This document shows positions 50,830 through 58,672 of a stretch of 64,000 nt of DNA, one piece after another; the first letter of the stretch is position 1, and each line of letters begins with the position of its first letter. A program made the translations under genes and the position numbers. The notes below the pieces were generated by a model. That model ran no database searches. It was given only the letters and a program-made list of their open reading frames with translations, and was not told where the DNA came from. This stretch comes from Arachidicoccus terrestris (GTDB lineage: Bacteria > Bacteroidota > Bacteroidia > Chitinophagales > Chitinophagaceae): NCBI RefSeq assembly GCF_020042345.1, contig NZ_CP083387.1, positions 682,001 through 746,000 on the forward strand, read 5' to 3'.

Positions 50830-51249
50830 ATAGCATAATACCTTCCTTTCTCAACGATGTGCCGGTTTCAGCCATACATCATAAAACAAATACCTTCAGG
50901 CTTCCAGGAAAAACCCGAAAACAACACCCCCTGCCATCTCCTCTCCATCCCACCAGACAGCAAAGAAAGCAACTAACATTCATTGTTAAAATGATAAATA
51001 TCACAAGAAGTGTCAAACTAAGAAATAAAATACCAGTATCAACCGGGCAAAAAAGTCTGCTGTACCTAAATTCACCTCCCAGCGCTTCGCATGATCATCG
51101 GTGTGACATTTATCATTGTATATCAAGCCAGCATTTCATTATTTTGTTGTTCGCATATCAAAAGACAGGATCTGTCCCCAATAAAGCTAAGGCCAGCCTG
51201 GGGGCAGTACCTGATAGTCAACAAATCATATTCAAGAAAATCACCGGTT
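50830..51249. other. Intergenic, no supported gene
   Basis: A 154-codon plus-strand frame (50823-51287) is open here but has low-complexity, basic composition without homology and overlaps the next real start. I do not call it. Confidence 0.35.
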
Positions 51250-51813
51250 ATGGCATTAAAGGAAACAGATCTCATTACAGTAGTTGAAGAACTGCGTCTC
51301 AAAGGATACACCGATACATTTACAATAGAAAACAACACCCTGATATCGGAAAAACTAAAAATGGCATTTAAAGAAAAAGACTTTATTATCGAAGGTGGCT
51401 ACCAGTTTGATATAGATGAGCAACCATTTGATACACAATATCTTTTCACAGTCCACATACCTGCACAAGGGCTAAAAGGCCTCCTCATAGACCTTCTCGG
51501 GATGTACTATTATATGGAAGAGCAGCCAATAACGGAGGTCTTAAGAAAGACCCCGCTTCTTACGTATCTGTTCGACGATAAGTCAACCCATCTGAAATAC
51601 GGGCTCCGAAAAATTACACCTTTTGACTACAACGTCGACAAAAGCAGATATGTTCTCAGAGTCGGCTTCCCCGACTTTCCGGCCTGTCCTGCAGGAACCG
51701 CATTTTCTATGCTAGGGTTCGACCAGCAAAAAAAGGAATATGTCTGGTTAACAACAAAAATTTTAAAAGACAAATCGTTAACGCGCGTGCAGTATGATCT
51801 CCTCTCAAAGTAA
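51250..51813 (+). CDS. Hypothetical protein with a small PRPP-synthetase-annotated N-terminal domain
   Basis: 187 residues from ATG 51250. The first 80 residues (VVEELRLKGYTDTFTIENNT, then EKDFIIEGGYQFDIDEQPFD) resemble a short Bacteroidota domain that databases often label phosphoribosylpyrophosphate synthetase, although no PRPP-binding motif is present. The second half (LRKTPLLTYLFDDKSTHLKY, FPDFPACPAGTAFSMLGFDQ) is unknown to me. The longer frame from 51091 is unlikely because its first 50 residues are unconserved-looking. Function unknown. Confidence 0.6.
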   Translation: MALKETDLITVVEELRLKGYTDTFTIENNTLISEKLKMAFKEKDFIIEGGYQFDIDEQPFDTQYLFTVHIPAQGLKGLLIDLLGMYYYMEEQPITEVLRKTPLLTYLFDDKSTHLKYGLRKITPFDYNVDKSRYVLRVGFPDFPACPAGTAFSMLGFDQQKKEYVWLTTKILKDKSLTRVQYDLLSK

Positions 51814-52183: not shown

Positions 52184-53164
52184 ATGATCGCGATAGCTGA
52201 CAGCCGCTCAGAAACCATGGCAAAAAATAAGGATTTCTATATCGATGTAATACAAGGCCTGAGCAAATCTCCCAAAAAGTTATCTTCAAAATACTTTTAT
52301 GACAAAACAGGGGACCGCATTTTTGAGCAAATCATGTCTTCTCCCGATTACTATCTTACTAAGTGTGAAATGGAAATCTTTAAAGAGAAATCCGACACGA
52401 TAGCAGAATATTTAATAAAAGAAAACGGCGAGTTTGACCTAATCGAGCTGGGGCCGGGCAACTGTGCAAAGTCAATCCACCTGTTGCGTTCGCTCGTGAA
52501 AAGAAATAGCTCTATTCACTATATCCCGATTGACATCTCTGAGAGTATAATCCGGGAATTACAGGTAGTACTCCCCGGCAGTGTACCCGGTTTAATTTTC
52601 GAAGGGCGCACGGGTGATTACTTCGATCAACTGGGCTCCTACCAGGGAAGGCCGGGAAGGAGAAAAGTAGTCCTATGCCTTGGCGGCAATATTGGCAATA
52701 TGTCTGTTTCGGAAAGCTGCCAATTTTGCCATACACTCAGAAGTCACCTGCATCCCGGCGATCAATGTATAATCGGTTTCGACCTTATTAAGCATCCCGA
52801 GGTCATCCGCCGGGCATATGATGACCGTGACGGTTTTACCAGGGAATTCAATCTTAACCTGCTTCAAAGAATCAACCGGGAGCTAGACGCTGACTTTGAT
52901 ATGGAACAATTTGATCACTACTGTAGCTATGACCCCTTGGAAGGGGCAGCGAAAAGTTATTTGATCTGCAAATGTGACATGACGGTGAAGATATCCGGCA
53001 TTCTCTTTCATTTTAAAGAAAACGAACCTATCTGGACCGAAATATCACAGAAATTCACGAAGGGACAAATTCAAAAGATGGCAGACAGTAACAGTTTTAT
53101 ACATTCCTGCCACTTTTCCGATACTAAATCATGGTTTATGGACGCGGTCTGGACAGCCATTTAA
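52184..53164 (+). CDS. egtD: L-histidine N(alpha)-methyltransferase
   Basis: Makes hercynine by three SAM-dependent methylations of histidine, the first committed step of ergothioneine synthesis. It has the family start KKLSSKYFYDKTGDRIFEQI, ..SSPDYYLTKCE, the SAM loop DLIELGPGNCAKS, PIDISESII, LCLGGNIGNMS and the C-terminal substrate region with YNE-like SFIHSCHFSD. At 326 residues it is full length. An internal ATG at 52217 is a possible alternative start. It is followed after only 10 bases by a flavoprotein gene and then egtB, a clear operon. Confidence 0.93.
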   Translation: MIAIADSRSETMAKNKDFYIDVIQGLSKSPKKLSSKYFYDKTGDRIFEQIMSSPDYYLTKCEMEIFKEKSDTIAEYLIKENGEFDLIELGPGNCAKSIHLLRSLVKRNSSIHYIPIDISESIIRELQVVLPGSVPGLIFEGRTGDYFDQLGSYQGRPGRRKVVLCLGGNIGNMSVSESCQFCHTLRSHLHPGDQCIIGFDLIKHPEVIRRAYDDRDGFTREFNLNLLQRINRELDADFDMEQFDHYCSYDPLEGAAKSYLICKCDMTVKISGILFHFKENEPIWTEISQKFTKGQIQKMADSNSFIHSCHFSDTKSWFMDAVWTAI

Positions 53165-53174
53165 CAAAGAACAA

Positions 53175-54593
53175 ATGGAAAACTTCGACGCGATAATCAT
53201 CGGATCCGGCCAGGCGGGCACCCCCCTGGCGAAGAAATTAGCCGGGGAAGGCCGGCAGGTCGCCTTAATTGAATCCGAAAATATTGGAGGTACTTGCATT
53301 AATAATGGATGTACGCCAACAAAAACGTTGGTAGGTACGGCAAAAGTGATCGCTCAGGCACAAAAAGCGGCAAAATATGGTGTCCGCCATACGAAAGCCT
53401 ACCCCGATTACCAACTGGTACATCAAAATATGACAGAGGTCGTTCATGCTTTCCGGCAGGGACAGGTTACCAGTATTAACAGCAGCCCGAATATCACAAC
53501 ATTTTATGGTAAAGGTCAGCTATCAGGCGACAATCAGGTAGACATTCGGTTAAAAGACCATGAAATTAAAACAATAACGGCGCCGTTAATCTTTATTAAC
53601 ACCGGTGCCAGACCCTATATTCCTCAAATAGACGGCTTAGATTCAACGAAATTTTACACATCCCGAACCCTGCTCTCGATAACGCAGCTTCCGGAACATT
53701 TAATAATTATTGGAGGAGGTTACATATCACTCGAATTTTCTCAGATTTTCAGACGCTTAGGCAGTCAGGTCACAATCATAGAAAAATCAGCGTACCTGCT
53801 GTCGAAAGAAGATGAAGATGTCAGTATAGCGGTTCAGCATTTTCTGGAAGAAGAAGGTATTACAATTATCACAAAGGCTGAGATCCAGCGTGTCCGCACC
53901 AATAGCAAAAACGAGACCGAGGTCACGATACTGAAAGAAAATGTGCCTGTCGGGCTTTGTGGCTCACACCTTTTAATTGCTACAGGGCGGACACCTAATA
54001 CCGAGGATCTACAACTGGAAAAAGCAGGCGTTGAAACAGATCAAAAAGGGTATATTGCTGTCAACAATCATCTTCGCACGACCAACAAGGCAATCTACGC
54101 ACTGGGCGACGTCAAGGGTGGCCCCGCATTTACACACGTATCATATTACGACTATATCCTGATCTCCAACCACCTTTCCGGTAATGCTATCGATCCGGTG
54201 CAAAGCGACCTGATCCCCTATTGCATATTCACAGATCCGGAGCTGGGAAGAATTGGCCTTTCCGAGAAACAGGCTGAGCGAAAAGGGGTAGACTACTCAG
54301 TTGCCAGGCTTAACGCGTCATCCATAGCAAGAGCTATTGAAACAGACGAAACAAAGGGTTTTATTAAGGTACTGATTGACAATAAGACAAAAAAAATTAT
54401 CGGCGTTACGGCCCTTTGTGCCGGCGGGGGAGAATTGATGTCCTTATTGCAGATAGCCATACAAGGCAGCCTCACCTATGAGCAACTCCGCGATACCATG
54501 TTCGCCCATCCCACATACGCCGAAGCCATCAACAATCTATTTAACGCCGCTCATATTCAAAATCGCCATGCACATGCTCCAGCTAAAAGATAA
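53175..54593 (+). CDS. FAD-dependent disulfide oxidoreductase (mercuric reductase / lipoamide dehydrogenase type)
   Basis: 472 residues of the class I pyridine nucleotide-disulfide family. FAD site DAIIIGSGQAGTPLAKKLAG, redox-active pair GGTCINNGCTPTKT (Cys41, Cys46), NAD(P)H site IIIGGGYISLEFSQIFRRLG, second FAD motif AIYALGDVKGGPAFTHVSYY, and the dimer-interface catalytic His-Pro (FAHPTYAEAI) near the end. No N-terminal heavy-metal domain and no C-terminal vicinal cysteines for mercury. Wedged between egtD and egtB and overlapping egtB by 26 bases, it may keep ergothioneine or a related thiol reduced; this is inference. Confidence 0.9.
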   Translation: MENFDAIIIGSGQAGTPLAKKLAGEGRQVALIESENIGGTCINNGCTPTKTLVGTAKVIAQAQKAAKYGVRHTKAYPDYQLVHQNMTEVVHAFRQGQVTSINSSPNITTFYGKGQLSGDNQVDIRLKDHEIKTITAPLIFINTGARPYIPQIDGLDSTKFYTSRTLLSITQLPEHLIIIGGGYISLEFSQIFRRLGSQVTIIEKSAYLLSKEDEDVSIAVQHFLEEEGITIITKAEIQRVRTNSKNETEVTILKENVPVGLCGSHLLIATGRTPNTEDLQLEKAGVETDQKGYIAVNNHLRTTNKAIYALGDVKGGPAFTHVSYYDYILISNHLSGNAIDPVQSDLIPYCIFTDPELGRIGLSEKQAERKGVDYSVARLNASSIARAIETDETKGFIKVLIDNKTKKIIGVTALCAGGGELMSLLQIAIQGSLTYEQLRDTMFAHPTYAEAINNLFNAAHIQNRHAHAPAKR

Positions 54594-55734
54594 ATATCAA
54601 TCCGTCCGGTCGAGAAGCGAGCAGATTTGCACCTCGTTAGAGACCGAAGACTATGTCGTCCAACCTGTAGTAGATGTCAGCCCTCCTAAATGGCATCTGG
54701 GCCATACCTCATGGTTTTTCGAAACGTTCATCTTAATTCCTTTCGTAAAAGATTACAAACCCTACAATACTTCATATCCGTTTGTTTTCAATAGCTATTA
54801 TGAAAGCTTCGGCAAAAAAATCATACGAACAGACAGGGGGAATTTAAGCCGCCCAACCGTAGAAGATATCTATAGCTACCGCCACCATGTTGACACGGCC
54901 ATGACTCAGTTATTAAGCGATACACCCTCCGCTGAAATACAGACGCTGACCATACTAGGCCTGAATCACGAGGAGCAGCACCAAGAGCTGCTGGCCACTG
55001 ACATTAAGTACATCTTAGGGCACAATCCACTGTTTCCCCCATATGAGGAACTTGTTAACCAACCCATAAATGACAATTCTGAAATGGGCGTCATCCATGT
55101 TGAGGAAGGTATGTACAATATTGGTTACAAAGGCAATAAGTTTTGCTTTGATAACGAATTAAATAACCACGATGTTTTCCTTGCTGCTTTTACAATAAGC
55201 AAAGCATTAGTTACGAATCAACAATACATCGAATTCATTGAAGATAACGGCTATCAAAGACACGAGCTCTGGCATGCTGAGGGCCTCGACTGGGTCAAGA
55301 ACAATCTAATCAGCGCCCCACTCTATTGGCACCAAATCAACAACAACTGGCATTATTATTCTTCAAGGGGTATCCGGAAAATAGAATTAAACGAACCGGT
55401 AACACATATAAGCTACTATGAGGCCGCTGCCTATGCTGCCTGGAAAGGGATGCGGCTGCCCACGGAATTTGAATGGGAGGCAGCCAGTCCCAGGTTTCAA
55501 TGGGGCCAAAGATGGGAATGGACTAACAGTGCCTATCTTCCCTATCCCGGATACGTAAGGGAAGCGGGCGCCATTGGCGAATACAATGGCAAGTTCATGG
55601 TCAACCAGATGGTACTGCGGGGTGCCTCCATCGTCACCCCACCAGGCCACAGCCGTTCCACCTACCGGAATTTCTTTCATCCACATTTGCAATGGCAATA
55701 CACGGGCATTCGTCTCGCCCAAAGTGGCGAATAA
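54568..55734 (+). CDS. egtB: Ergothioneine biosynthesis sulfoxide synthase
   Basis: Non-haem iron enzyme that joins hercynine to a thiol (gamma-glutamylcysteine or cysteine) with oxygen. From the ATG at 54568 it is 388 residues. The N-terminal DinB-like domain has iron ligands in LGHTSWFFE (His46) and LNHEEQHQE (His134, His138). The C-terminal FGE-sulfatase domain has YEAAAYAAWKGMRLPTEFEW and RGASIVTPPGHSRSTYRNF. egtA is not present, so the thiol donor may be cysteine. It overlaps the preceding reductase gene by 26 bases. Confidence 0.93.
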   Translation: MHMLQLKDKYQSVRSRSEQICTSLETEDYVVQPVVDVSPPKWHLGHTSWFFETFILIPFVKDYKPYNTSYPFVFNSYYESFGKKIIRTDRGNLSRPTVEDIYSYRHHVDTAMTQLLSDTPSAEIQTLTILGLNHEEQHQELLATDIKYILGHNPLFPPYEELVNQPINDNSEMGVIHVEEGMYNIGYKGNKFCFDNELNNHDVFLAAFTISKALVTNQQYIEFIEDNGYQRHELWHAEGLDWVKNNLISAPLYWHQINNNWHYYSSRGIRKIELNEPVTHISYYEAAAYAAWKGMRLPTEFEWEAASPRFQWGQRWEWTNSAYLPYPGYVREAGAIGEYNGKFMVNQMVLRGASIVTPPGHSRSTYRNFFHPHLQWQYTGIRLAQSGE

Positions 55735-55824
55735 GAACACCCGATGGCAGCGCATAATAGAACAGGACTTTGTCAATAGATTCCCCGGTCATAAAATATT
55801 CTTTAATATAAAAACAATAAAAAA

Positions 55825-56178
55825 ATGGAAAAGACAATACAGGAACTTGTAGACGCTATGAATGCGAAGATTGCAGAAGGTCAGCTCGTCGAAGCCGGCG
55901 ACATGTATTTCGCGGAAAACATTAAAACAGTTGAGTATGACGGTACAGTGACAGAAGGCAAACAAGCCGTCATGAAGAAACTAACAGATTTTATCGATTC
56001 GATTGATCAAGTAAAAAAAATACAGTTGCTTCGGGCGACCTCAAATAACAATGCTTCCTTTTCTGAATACATTCTAGACTTCGACATGCAAGACGGTTCT
56101 AGTATCTATCTGCACGAGATAATCCGTTCACTATGGGAAAATGGAAAAGTAATAGAGGAACATTATTTCAAAGGATAA
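55825..56178 (+). CDS. NTF2/SnoaL-like protein
   Basis: 117 residues with the NTF2-like cone fold pattern (MEKTIQELVDAMNAKIAEGQ, YFAENIKTVEYDGTVTEGKQ, SIYLHEIIRSLWENGKVIEE). Such proteins bind small hydrophobic ligands or act as simple isomerases. It follows egtB by 90 bases in the same direction and precedes the GreA-like and Msr genes, so it may belong to the same redox locus. Exact role unknown. Confidence 0.78.
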   Translation: MEKTIQELVDAMNAKIAEGQLVEAGDMYFAENIKTVEYDGTVTEGKQAVMKKLTDFIDSIDQVKKIQLLRATSNNNASFSEYILDFDMQDGSSIYLHEIIRSLWENGKVIEEHYFKG

Positions 56179-56248
56179 CAGCACTGGAAGGACGCGCACC
56201 GACAAAAGCCTTTCACTAAAAGCAGCCGACAGCAATAACAAAATAAAT

Positions 56249-56692
56249 ATGGATAAAATACATTTAAAAGCTAACTTAATTAAAGCACACGAACAGACAA
56301 TCCAAGGCTTAAAAGAAGATTATGCGAATCTTCAAACGGAAGGAAACCTGAATCTTGAAGATGTCCGTGACCTTGACGACAATTCTCACAGAGAGCAGGC
56401 AGAAGAATACCTTTACGCGCTTGAAAGACAGATTTCCCAGCGAGAAACTGAACTGAGGCAGCTCCGGAACCTGGATTTTGGCAAAAAAGACGCCGTAACA
56501 GAAGGTGCTGTGGCACTCGTAAACGGAAACTACTACATAATCGGCATTCCTGCCTGCCAGTTTGACCTGGACGGGAAACATTATATAGCCATGTCACCGG
56601 ATGCGCCCTTCTACGAACAACTGATGGGCAGAAGACAAAATGACTCATTCCTGTTTCAGGAAAAGCAATTTACAGTGGAAAACATTTTTTAA
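56249..56692 (+). CDS. GreA-like protein (coiled coil plus C-terminal domain)
   Basis: 147 residues. Residues 1-80 form an antiparallel coiled coil (HEQTIQGLKEDYANLQTEGN ... EYLYALERQISQRETELRQL). The C-terminal part (TEGAVALVNGNYYIIGIPAC, YIAMSPDAPFYEQLMGRRQN) resembles the FKBP-like domain of GreA/GreB elongation factors. The acidic tip residues of true GreA are not obvious, so it may bind RNA polymerase secondary channel without cleavage activity. Sits 16 bases before the msrBA fusion gene. Confidence 0.65.
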   Translation: MDKIHLKANLIKAHEQTIQGLKEDYANLQTEGNLNLEDVRDLDDNSHREQAEEYLYALERQISQRETELRQLRNLDFGKKDAVTEGAVALVNGNYYIIGIPACQFDLDGKHYIAMSPDAPFYEQLMGRRQNDSFLFQEKQFTVENIF

Positions 56693-56708
56693 TACTAAAA
56701 ACAACACA

Positions 56709-57686
56709 ATGTTAAAGTGGATCGATATCATAAAATTCGCCAATAACGGAAGCCCCGCTCCCGACAAAAGAGTTGAAAAAACACCCGATGAATGGAAAGC
56801 GATATTAACACCCGAACAATATAACATTACCAGACTCAAAGGAACCGAACGGGCGTTTAGCTCAGAGTTGTGTTCATATTTTGAGCCGGGGCGTTACGCC
56901 TGCGTATGCTGCAATACGGAGCTATTTGATGCCGAAACAAAATTTGAAAGCGGGACCGGATGGCCTTCTTTTACGCAGCCGATAAAAGAAAATGTCGTCG
57001 CCTATCACAAAGACACGGCTTTCGGCATGCAGCGGATCGAGGCGTTATGCAGTACATGTGACGCACATCTGGGCCACGTGTTTCAGGATGGGCCCAAACC
57101 TAGCGGGCTTCGTTATTGCATGAATGCCGTCTCCCTCAAAAAAATTGAGGTTAAAGAAAAAAAAGCCGATTTCGGAGGCGGTTGCTTTTGGTGTACAGAA
57201 GCTATATTTCAACGTATTAAAGGCGTTCTGAAAGTAGAAAGCGGCTATAGTGGGGGCACTACGGTTAACCCGACGTACAGAGAAGTCTGCAGTGGCACAA
57301 CCGGTCACGCAGAAATGATCGAAGTCACCTACGACCCTGACCAGATATCCTATGAAGACCTGCTGCGCATCCACCTGACCACCCACAACCCTACCACAGT
57401 TGACAAGCAAGGGGCTGACCGCGGGTCCCAATACCGAAGTATTATTTTCTACAGGTCAGAAGACGAAAAACAATTGGCCATCCATGTCATCGAAGAAATA
57501 CAGAAAGATATTCCTGATATGATTGTCACTCAGGTAGAAATGTTTGAGCATTTTTACAAAGCAGAAGCGTATCACCAGAATTATTACAATAATAATCAGG
57601 AAGGCGGATACTGTCAAGCGGTCATCGATCCTAAACTCGCAAAATTCAGGAAAGATTATGACAGGCGACTCATCAACAAAGATTAA
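56709..57686 (+). CDS. msrBA: Bifunctional methionine sulfoxide reductase MsrB-MsrA fusion
   Basis: 325 residues from ATG 56709. Residues 20-145 are MsrB: zinc cysteines in CVCC (65/68) and CSTC (114/117), FESGTGWPSF and the catalytic Cys137 in RYCMNAVSL. Residues 152-320 are MsrA: GGGCFWCTEAIFQ with catalytic Cys159, VESGYSGGTT, GHAEMIEVTYDP, EGGYC. MsrA repairs S- and MsrB R-methionine sulfoxide; the order B-A is the reverse of the Neisseria-type A-B fusion. Thioredoxin reductase, the usual electron source through thioredoxin, starts 11 bases downstream. Confidence 0.95.
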   Translation: MLKWIDIIKFANNGSPAPDKRVEKTPDEWKAILTPEQYNITRLKGTERAFSSELCSYFEPGRYACVCCNTELFDAETKFESGTGWPSFTQPIKENVVAYHKDTAFGMQRIEALCSTCDAHLGHVFQDGPKPSGLRYCMNAVSLKKIEVKEKKADFGGGCFWCTEAIFQRIKGVLKVESGYSGGTTVNPTYREVCSGTTGHAEMIEVTYDPDQISYEDLLRIHLTTHNPTTVDKQGADRGSQYRSIIFYRSEDEKQLAIHVIEEIQKDIPDMIVTQVEMFEHFYKAEAYHQNYYNNNQEGGYCQAVIDPKLAKFRKDYDRRLINKD

Positions 57687-57697
57687 AATCAAAGCAA

Positions 57698-58672
57698 ATG
57701 GATGAAAAACAAATAGAAAAAGTAAACTGTCTGATCATTGGCTCGGGCCCTGCTGGTTATACCGCGGCCATCTATGCAGCCAGAGCGGATCTAAAACCAA
57801 TATTGTATACAGGGCTATTTATCGGCGGACAACTCACCAAAACAGGTGAAGTAGAAAACTATCCAGGCTACCCTGATAGCACAATGGGCCCGGAAATGAT
57901 GGCAAATTTCCATAGACAGGCCGCAAAAATGGGCGCTGATCTGAGAATTGGCTATGCCAATGCAGTAGATTTCTCCAAAAGGCCCTTCCGTGTATCCATT
58001 GACGACAAAAAAGAGCTACTAGCCGATACTGTAATTATCGCTACAGGCGCAACGCCAAAGTGGCTTGGCCTGGAGGCAGAGCAGACATATGCTGGCAAAG
58101 GGGTATCTGCTTGTGCGACCTGTGACGGTTTTTTCTTTAAAGGCCAGGACGTGGCCATTGTCGGCGGTGGCGACACTGCCGCCGAAGAAGCTTTACATTT
58201 GGCCAAACTTTGTAAAAAAGTGTATATGCTGGTTAGAAAGACCGGATTCAGGGCATCCAAAACCATGGTGCACAAAATAGAAAACACCGAGAACATTGAA
58301 GTCATTTTTAACGTAGAAGTAAAAAATATAGTAGGCGATGGGCGAAAAGTAAATGGAGTCTGCCTACGCAATAACCAAACGAATACCGACTTAACATTAT
58401 CGGTAAGCGGCTTTTTCGTAGCCATCGGGCACCATCCCAATACAGAGCTGTTCAAATCCTGGCTAGACATGGATAAGGCAGGTTATATACAAACAAAGAA
58501 TTGTTCCACGGCAACAAATATTCCCGGTATCTTCTGTTGCGGTGATGCGCAAGATGCAAATTACCGGCAGGCAATTACAGCGGCAGGATCGGGATGTATG
58601 GCAGCTATTGACTGTGAAAGATTCCTATTGGCAATGGAGCACAGTCCGATAGCAATAGCTGATGTAAGCTAA
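57698..58672 (+). CDS. trxB: Thioredoxin-disulfide reductase
   Basis: NADPH-dependent flavoprotein that reduces thioredoxin. FAD site LIIGSGPAGYTAAIYAARAD, the redox centre ACATCDGFFF (Cys139, Cys142), NADPH site VAIVGGGDTAAEEALHLAKL, and GIFCCGDAQDANYRQAITAA. At 324 residues it is the low-molecular-weight bacterial type. It is transcribed with msrBA (11-base gap), giving the repair enzyme its reducing power. Thioredoxin itself is not in the window. Confidence 0.95.
   Translation: MDEKQIEKVNCLIIGSGPAGYTAAIYAARADLKPILYTGLFIGGQLTKTGEVENYPGYPDSTMGPEMMANFHRQAAKMGADLRIGYANAVDFSKRPFRVSIDDKKELLADTVIIATGATPKWLGLEAEQTYAGKGVSACATCDGFFFKGQDVAIVGGGDTAAEEALHLAKLCKKVYMLVRKTGFRASKTMVHKIENTENIEVIFNVEVKNIVGDGRKVNGVCLRNNQTNTDLTLSVSGFFVAIGHHPNTELFKSWLDMDKAGYIQTKNCSTATNIPGIFCCGDAQDANYRQAITAAGSGCMAAIDCERFLLAMEHSPIAIADVS

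Follow-up and report, generated by a model that had tools for sequence, protein, structure and literature searches.

How ergothioneine is kept in its reduced form is an open question, and the systems described so far that come closest to it are of several kinds. The C-S lyase EgtE converts the sulfoxide intermediate of the pathway to ergothioneine sulfenic acid, which disproportionates to ergothioneine and its sulfinic acid unless dithiothreitol or another reductant is supplied (PMC4493562). Oxidants also turn ergothioneine into its disulfide; mammalian selenocysteine thioredoxin reductase (TrxR) is reported to reduce oxidised ergothioneine directly, TrxR without selenium to do so little or not at all, and glutathione reductase to act on the disulfide only when glutathione is present, and this 2022 mammalian study calls selenocysteine TrxR the first direct enzymatic system for ergothioneine recycling (PMC8868364). 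EgtUV is a known ergothioneine importer (PMC9732360). A further group of enzymes, consisting of RclA, the Staphylococcus aureus hypothiocyanous acid (HOSCN) reductase and pneumococcal Har, reduces HOSCN and is marked by two active-site lysines (K13 and K16 in Har), and for Har it is proposed that the first active-site cysteine attacks HOSCN and the second resolves the product (PMC11107202). Here we describe a flavoprotein disulfide reductase (FP) encoded between egtD and egtB in a 64,000-nt window of the Arachidicoccus terrestris genome (contig NZ_CP083387.1 of GCF_020042345.1, positions 682,001-746,000, forward strand; all positions below are window positions unless a locus is named), and we propose it as a candidate reductase of oxidised ergothioneine.

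On the plus strand of the window, egtD, FP, egtB, two small open reading frames (ORFs), msrBA and trxB follow one another (Table 1). A preliminary description of this DNA had noted the tight packing of the first three genes and the MsrB-MsrA fusion and thioredoxin reductase downstream; the ORF coordinates agree, with a gap of 10 bases between egtD and FP and an overlap of 26 bases between FP and egtB, and family models bear out both downstream genes. From its gene content we read the locus as a cassette that serves both the synthesis and the upkeep of ergothioneine.

We searched for FP and EgtB in 59 relatives and 395 genomes of the phylum, and for FP alone in 396 genomes sampled from the order, the samples partly overlapping; the locus of Epilithonimonas mollis (L005) was found in a separate scan. 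Phylum FP hits were taken at E 1e-85 or better, which gave 39 besides the window, 35 of them retrieved (G237, G410, G293, G371 and weaker hits were left out), and in the order sample all 23 genomes with an FP besides the window were covered by 20 newly retrieved loci and three from the earlier samples. Neighbourhoods were annotated by BLAST against the window and E. mollis proteins, and an FP was counted as egt-linked when a match above 36% and 150 bits to egtB, egtD or egtV lay no more than 6 kb away. In the resulting tree of 76 rows, the window FP belongs to a clade of 33 rows (support 97/94), 28 of which are egt-linked and five not, and an earlier tree of 56 rows agrees (13 of 17 clade rows linked, support 96/84). 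Four of the five unlinked members (G325, G055, G012 and G303) come from genomes with an egtB elsewhere, and the fifth, G580, was outside that check. All linked clade rows except the window and L079 (26 of 28) have in the cluster the EgtV of an EgtUV-like importer. Among relatives of FP that fall outside the clade, egt linkage is rare: only 2 of 35 GQAG-type rows and none of three RclA-type rows show it. The two linked outsiders, L160, which adjoins EgtB-EgtD, and L292, which has a divergent EgtB less than 1 kb away, look like separate recruitments of FP to egt genes. A third locus, L182, has an EgtD-like ORF near its FP that at 36% falls under the threshold, in a genome with no EgtB at 1e-60, and was not counted. 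The gene-neighbourhood comparison that the preliminary description had called for thus turned out favourably, and the pattern it regarded as damaging, an FP found mostly apart from egt genes, appears only outside the clade. The association of FP with ergothioneine is strong.

The usual operon order is FP, EgtU (ATPase), EgtV (permease with a binding domain), EgtB and EgtD, found in L080, L082, L153-L158, L161 and L162 and in 15 of the 20 loci of the order sample (L276, L277 and L279-L291). In three of these loci a single gene of the five escaped our ORF filter: EgtB in L154, which was placed by the EgtB search, and EgtU in L282 and L287. The shorter order FP-EgtB-EgtD occurs in L079 and L160. 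FP overlaps the next egt gene or lies at most 50 bases from it in 22 of the 26 loci with a measurable gap. The claim that FP is fixed between egtD and egtB holds only for the EgtD-FP-EgtB order of the window and, with the transporter inserted, for E. mollis, where EgtD-FP-EgtU-EgtV-EgtB-MsrBA-TrxB amounts to the window cassette plus an importer; elsewhere FP heads the operon. A small DUF427 gene stands just 5' of FP or near egtB in several clusters, including L080 (5992-6273, PF04248) and, by BLAST, near FP in L154, L157, L161, L162, L281, L282, L284, L285 and L290, and also in L089, L194 and L292. We know of no role for DUF427 in ergothioneine metabolism.

FP itself has the features of group I flavoprotein disulfide reductases, namely the CxxxxC motif, the HPxxxE dyad and the Pyr_redox_2 and dimerisation domains. 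It was correctly described earlier as having CxxxxC (C41-x4-C46) and a C-terminal His-Pro (H445-P446-x3-E450) with no N-terminal mercury-binding domain, and C41, C46, H445, P446 and E450 are invariant in all 33 clade rows. Its AlphaFold (AF2) model, built from nine sequences (predicted local distance difference test score, pLDDT, 86.5), matches lipoamide dehydrogenase, RclA and MerA in fold. Position 203 is glutamate or aspartate throughout the clade (33 of 33), an acidic residue after the second NAD strand that FP shares with RclA, the HOSCN reductases and lipoamide dehydrogenase, so NADH appears favoured and NADPH looks less likely as the electron donor. Among the best 25 of 49 NCBIfam families scored, FP reaches no cut-off, and the highest score is that of the PRK06370-type model (NF004992, 459 bits against a cut-off of 629). 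PRK06370-type proteins encoded on plasmids of Deinococcus, Rhizobium and Streptomyces share 42-45% identity with FP; unlike FP, the five plasmid loci of this type that were examined have no egt genes nearby.

That FP is a plain lipoamide dehydrogenase or mercuric reductase placed here by chance is an explanation that we regard as largely refuted and very improbable. The best Foldseek match of FP is indeed a lipoamide dehydrogenase, and the scores come near the dihydrolipoyl dehydrogenase model (TIGR01350, 388.7 against 408.8 bits) and less near the mercuric reductase model (TIGR02053, 375 against 454). However, the genome encodes a second, lipoamide-dehydrogenase-like protein 28% identical to FP, five such rows fall outside the FP group in the tree with support 100/99, and a chance placement does not fit egt linkage recurring in 28 of 33 clade members. 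Mercuric reductases are marked by a vicinal cysteine pair at the C-terminus, and no clade row (0 of 33) has a cysteine in its last 20 residues.

It is also unlikely that FP is a reductase of reactive sulfur or chlorine species, akin to RclA or Har, that merely shares an oxidative-stress operon. RclA (290 bits), the S. aureus HOSCN reductase (281) and a variant of the latter (278) are the best sequence matches of FP in the PDB; RclA, S. aureus MerA and pneumococcal Har have in common with it the FAD disulfide reductase fold, CxxxxC and the His-Glu dyad; and an RclC-like DUF417 membrane protein is encoded in the E. mollis stretch (L005 226-663), over 4 kb to the 5' side of egtD. Yet the scores for the RclA model (NF040477, 383 against 740 bits) and the HOSCN reductase model (NF041853, 382 against 650) are far too low, and FP has Q13 and T16 where the two lysines would be. 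Lysine is absent from both places in 33 of 33 clade rows and present at both in three of three RclA-type rows, which lie outside the FP clade; L160, egt-linked and outside the FP clade, has K16 but Q13. The recurrent neighbours of FP, moreover, are the egt genes.

Of the two proteins on either side of FP, EgtD misses the cut-off of its NCBIfam model and passes that of Methyltransf_33 (Table 1), and its six PDB matches with E<=0.001 are without exception EgtD or histidine N-alpha-methyltransferase (best 1.9e-45). EgtB passes TIGR03440 with 519.6 bits against a cut-off of 360, and was rejected as the selenoneine enzyme SenA (351.7 bits, cut-off 420) and as the ovothiol enzyme OvoA (106 bits, cut-off 400). 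Its nearest solved relative is EgtB of Chloracidobacterium thermophilum (8qf6/6qki/6o6l, E about 1e-119), with which it shares the aligned tyrosine pair of FNSYYE, though it is shorter by about 23 residues between two aligned stretches. EgtB is a non-heme Fe(II) enzyme, and that of C. thermophilum is reported to prefer cysteine and to use Tyr93-Tyr94 as acid-base catalyst (PMC10903977), and by this likeness the window EgtB probably uses cysteine as well. As had been noted earlier, no egtA, egtC or egtE-like gene is visible: models for the three found none among eight proteins scanned from the stretch, a search that for egtA and egtC was not extended to the whole genome. The absence of egtA and egtC is expected because EgtB resembles the cysteine-using type, which needs neither, and on the same ground we rejected a broken pathway. 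Bacteroidota EgtBs come in two kinds, a short one of about 385 aa that is matched in a single stretch, like that of the window, and another, found mostly in open frames of 410-630 residues, whose best match is confined to roughly the first 300-340 residues of the query.

The pathway also requires a C-S lyase. The EgtE model (TIGR04343) gives at best 78.6 bits against a cut-off of 400 in the whole window genome, and none of 14 control genomes passes this cut-off either. Near egtD or egtB in other egt clusters we observed a class-V pyridoxal phosphate (PLP) enzyme of about 360 aa (L153 565-1635, L156 1027-2103, L198 4190-5272 and L204 8320-9408, all four far under the EgtE cut-off, and also L195, L197, L206, L194 and L089), which is a candidate for the C-S lyase of those clusters. 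We considered it as the lyase of the window genome too, but its homologue there is no more than 28% identical, and 10 of the 12 genomes searched gave no match at 1e-8.

Putting these observations together, we propose that EgtD would trimethylate histidine and EgtB would join the resulting hercynine to cysteine as the sulfoxide. The substrate of FP would be either the sulfenic acid that a C-S lyase releases from the sulfoxide or the disulfide of ergothioneine, whether made by oxidants or imported. Electrons from NAD(P)H, probably NADH, would pass through the FAD of FP to reduce the C41-C46 disulfide; C41 would then attack the sulfur of oxidised ergothioneine, C46 would resolve the mixed disulfide, and a proton from the H445-E450 pair of the partner subunit would allow ergothioneine to leave in reduced form. 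HOSCN and ergothioneine sulfenic acid both have an S-OH group on a nitrogen-bound carbon by our own chemical reasoning, and FP would carry out Har-like chemistry on a larger substrate with neither of the two lysines. MsrBA and TrxB of the window cassette would repair other oxidised sulfur. The role resembles that of mammalian selenocysteine TrxR, also a flavoenzyme that reduces oxidised ergothioneine directly, but TrxR relies on a selenocysteine centre that FP lacks and is not dedicated to ergothioneine. We predict that FP reduces an oxidised ergothioneine, be it the sulfenic acid or the disulfide, and on balance consider this somewhat more probable than its opposite. The narrower prediction of a dedicated reductase of the sulfenic acid (and the disulfide), which would finish oxygen-dependent synthesis and recycle the oxidised form alongside the importer, is tentative.

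Several observations weigh against the proposed role. The authors of the EgtE work suggest that natural thiols may reduce the sulfenic acid in vivo (PMC4493562), and the window genome encodes BshC (309 bits), so bacillithiol may do so without an enzyme. The window genome has no clear C-S lyase by the EgtE and class-V PLP searches. The residues specific to the FP clade are few (C350, L379 and T434) and none indicates a substrate, and the substrate of the importer is itself deduced, since choline-sensor proteins score as high as EgtUC. Co-occurrence is equivocal as well. EgtB (E 1e-60 or better) is present in 112 of 395 phylum genomes and in all 10 with a clade FP (hypergeometric 2.5e-6, uncorrected for kinship, eight of the 10 genomes being from one family, f22), and among the relatives in five of five genomes with a clade FP compared with 12 of 59 overall (1.6e-4, likewise uncorrected). 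However, EgtB also occurs in 16 of 24 phylum genomes whose FP lies outside the clade (Fisher p 0.07), or 20 of 28 when the four hits left out of the tree are included, and the co-occurrence probably reflects aerobes having both genes; because it is weak once the non-clade FPs are counted, linkage and the tree carry the argument. Finally, a survey from the EgtB side covered 44 genomes besides the window with EgtB in one full-length stretch and retrieved 42 loci (all but G280 and G157), of which 12 contain FP, 14 EgtV and 10 both, leaving 30 with no FP in the stretch. FP is therefore not needed for ergothioneine synthesis in general; it is optional for synthesis and tends to accompany the importer.

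Two further functions can be weighed against these data. FP might act more broadly on mixed or general low-molecular-weight disulfides (ergothioneine-bacillithiol, cystine or bacillithiol disulfide) and thereby keep the cysteine and thiol pool reduced for EgtB, a reading we hold improbable. It draws on the presence of BshC, on the cysteine preference of this type of EgtB and on the dependence of glutathione reductase on glutathione mentioned above; against it, a general thiol-pool reductase would need no egt linkage, and the models for glutathione reductase (298 against 480 bits), mycothione reductase (293 against 501) and coenzyme A disulfide reductase are far from being reached. That FP keeps a metal reduced, either the iron of EgtB or Cu(II) or Hg(II) bound by ergothioneine, seems quite improbable: RclA is annotated as a cupric reductase, mercuric reductase is related to FP and EgtB is an Fe(II) enzyme, but FP lacks both the C-terminal cysteine pair and a mercury-binding domain, and most egtB loci surveyed do without it.

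The preferred reading, that FP reduces oxidised ergothioneine, would give the question of how ergothioneine stays reduced a concrete gene candidate. In E. mollis and in members of at least two Bacteroidota families this gene accompanies egtB, egtD and an EgtUV-like importer. In searches of open-licence papers we found neither a bacterial reductase dedicated to ergothioneine nor a report of this flavoprotein in egt operons, and such an absence is weak evidence. If FP is a dedicated reductase of the sulfenic acid and the disulfide, it would be a first enzyme of this role in bacteria, and it could aid ergothioneine production in engineered hosts should over-oxidation of the sulfenic acid cost yield there.

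As to the importer, EgtUC is matched at 181 bits by the binding domain of the E. mollis EgtV and ranks just behind engineered sensors for choline and nicotine; ergothioneine is the likely substrate, a point that sequence does not settle. In this protein (L005 8372-9940) the halves of the OpuAC-type binding domain stand in swapped order: residues 237-376 match positions 137-276 of the EgtUC chain, the part from residue 376 on matches the first half of related binding proteins (in alignments to the sensor proteins), and Pfam OpuAC matches in two stretches. The swapped order may be general in the EgtVs of the other egt operons because these are 59-66% identical to that of E. mollis. A single-sequence AlphaFold prediction of E. 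mollis EgtV was uninformative (pLDDT 35.5).

The window genome has no counterpart of the importer (best EgtV match 23 bits), which was therefore probably lost there. In five other genomes of the genus no strong EgtB is found (best E 2.3e-13), and the closest matches to FP, which are not in the tree, show 27-29% identity, like lipoamide dehydrogenase. The window MsrB-MsrA is 79% identical to the E. mollis cassette copy, and the cassette TrxB shares 75% identity with that of the E. mollis cassette but 60% with the TrxB encoded elsewhere in the window genome (C1:4346940-4347860), which groups with the TrxBs of the genus. The second TrxB of E. mollis (55%) stands apart from the TrxBs of the window's order. 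Since each of the two genomes has a further trxB outside the cassette, msrBA and trxB seem to be carried along with it; trxB was apparently acquired in this way, and everything from egtD to trxB appears to have passed between distant lineages as one block.

Table 1. Genes and open reading frames of the ergothioneine locus of A. terrestris, in window positions
Feature	Position	Strand	Basis and remarks
ORF 5' of egtD	51091..51813	+	no Pfam or NCBIfam family; true start probably further in
egtD, histidine N-alpha-trimethyltransferase	52184..53164	+	PF10017 (Methyltransf_33) 307.8 bits; PDB matches; TIGR03438 262.9 bits against cut-off 290.9
FP, candidate reductase of oxidised ergothioneine, egt-linked clade	53175..54593	+	Pyr_redox_2 and Pyr_redox_dim; catalytic residues; clade; linkage
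egtB, sulfoxide synthase, probably of cysteine-using (Chloracidobacterium) type	54568..55734	+	TIGR03440; PDB relatives
SnoaL-like ORF between egtB and msrBA	55825..56178	+	PF20409 27.7 bits; not seen in E. mollis cassette
147-aa ORF between egtB and msrBA	56249..56692	+	no family match
MsrB-MsrA fusion, methionine sulfoxide reductase	about 56709..57686	+	NF004042 339 against 330 bits; start set by comparison with E. mollis
trxB (second of the genome), thioredoxin reductase	57698..58672	+	TIGR01292 374.8 bits against cut-off 343.45

The egtB frame opens at 54478, with the ATG used in Table 1 as the likely start and an ATG at 54574 as the alternative. Scans of the locus for promoters and terminators gave hits at chance level only. 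The SnoaL-like and 147-aa ORFs between egtB and msrBA had been omitted from the preliminary description. Upstream of egtD, the ORF at 51091-51813 has a homologue at the same place in E. mollis (58.7% over 155 aa).

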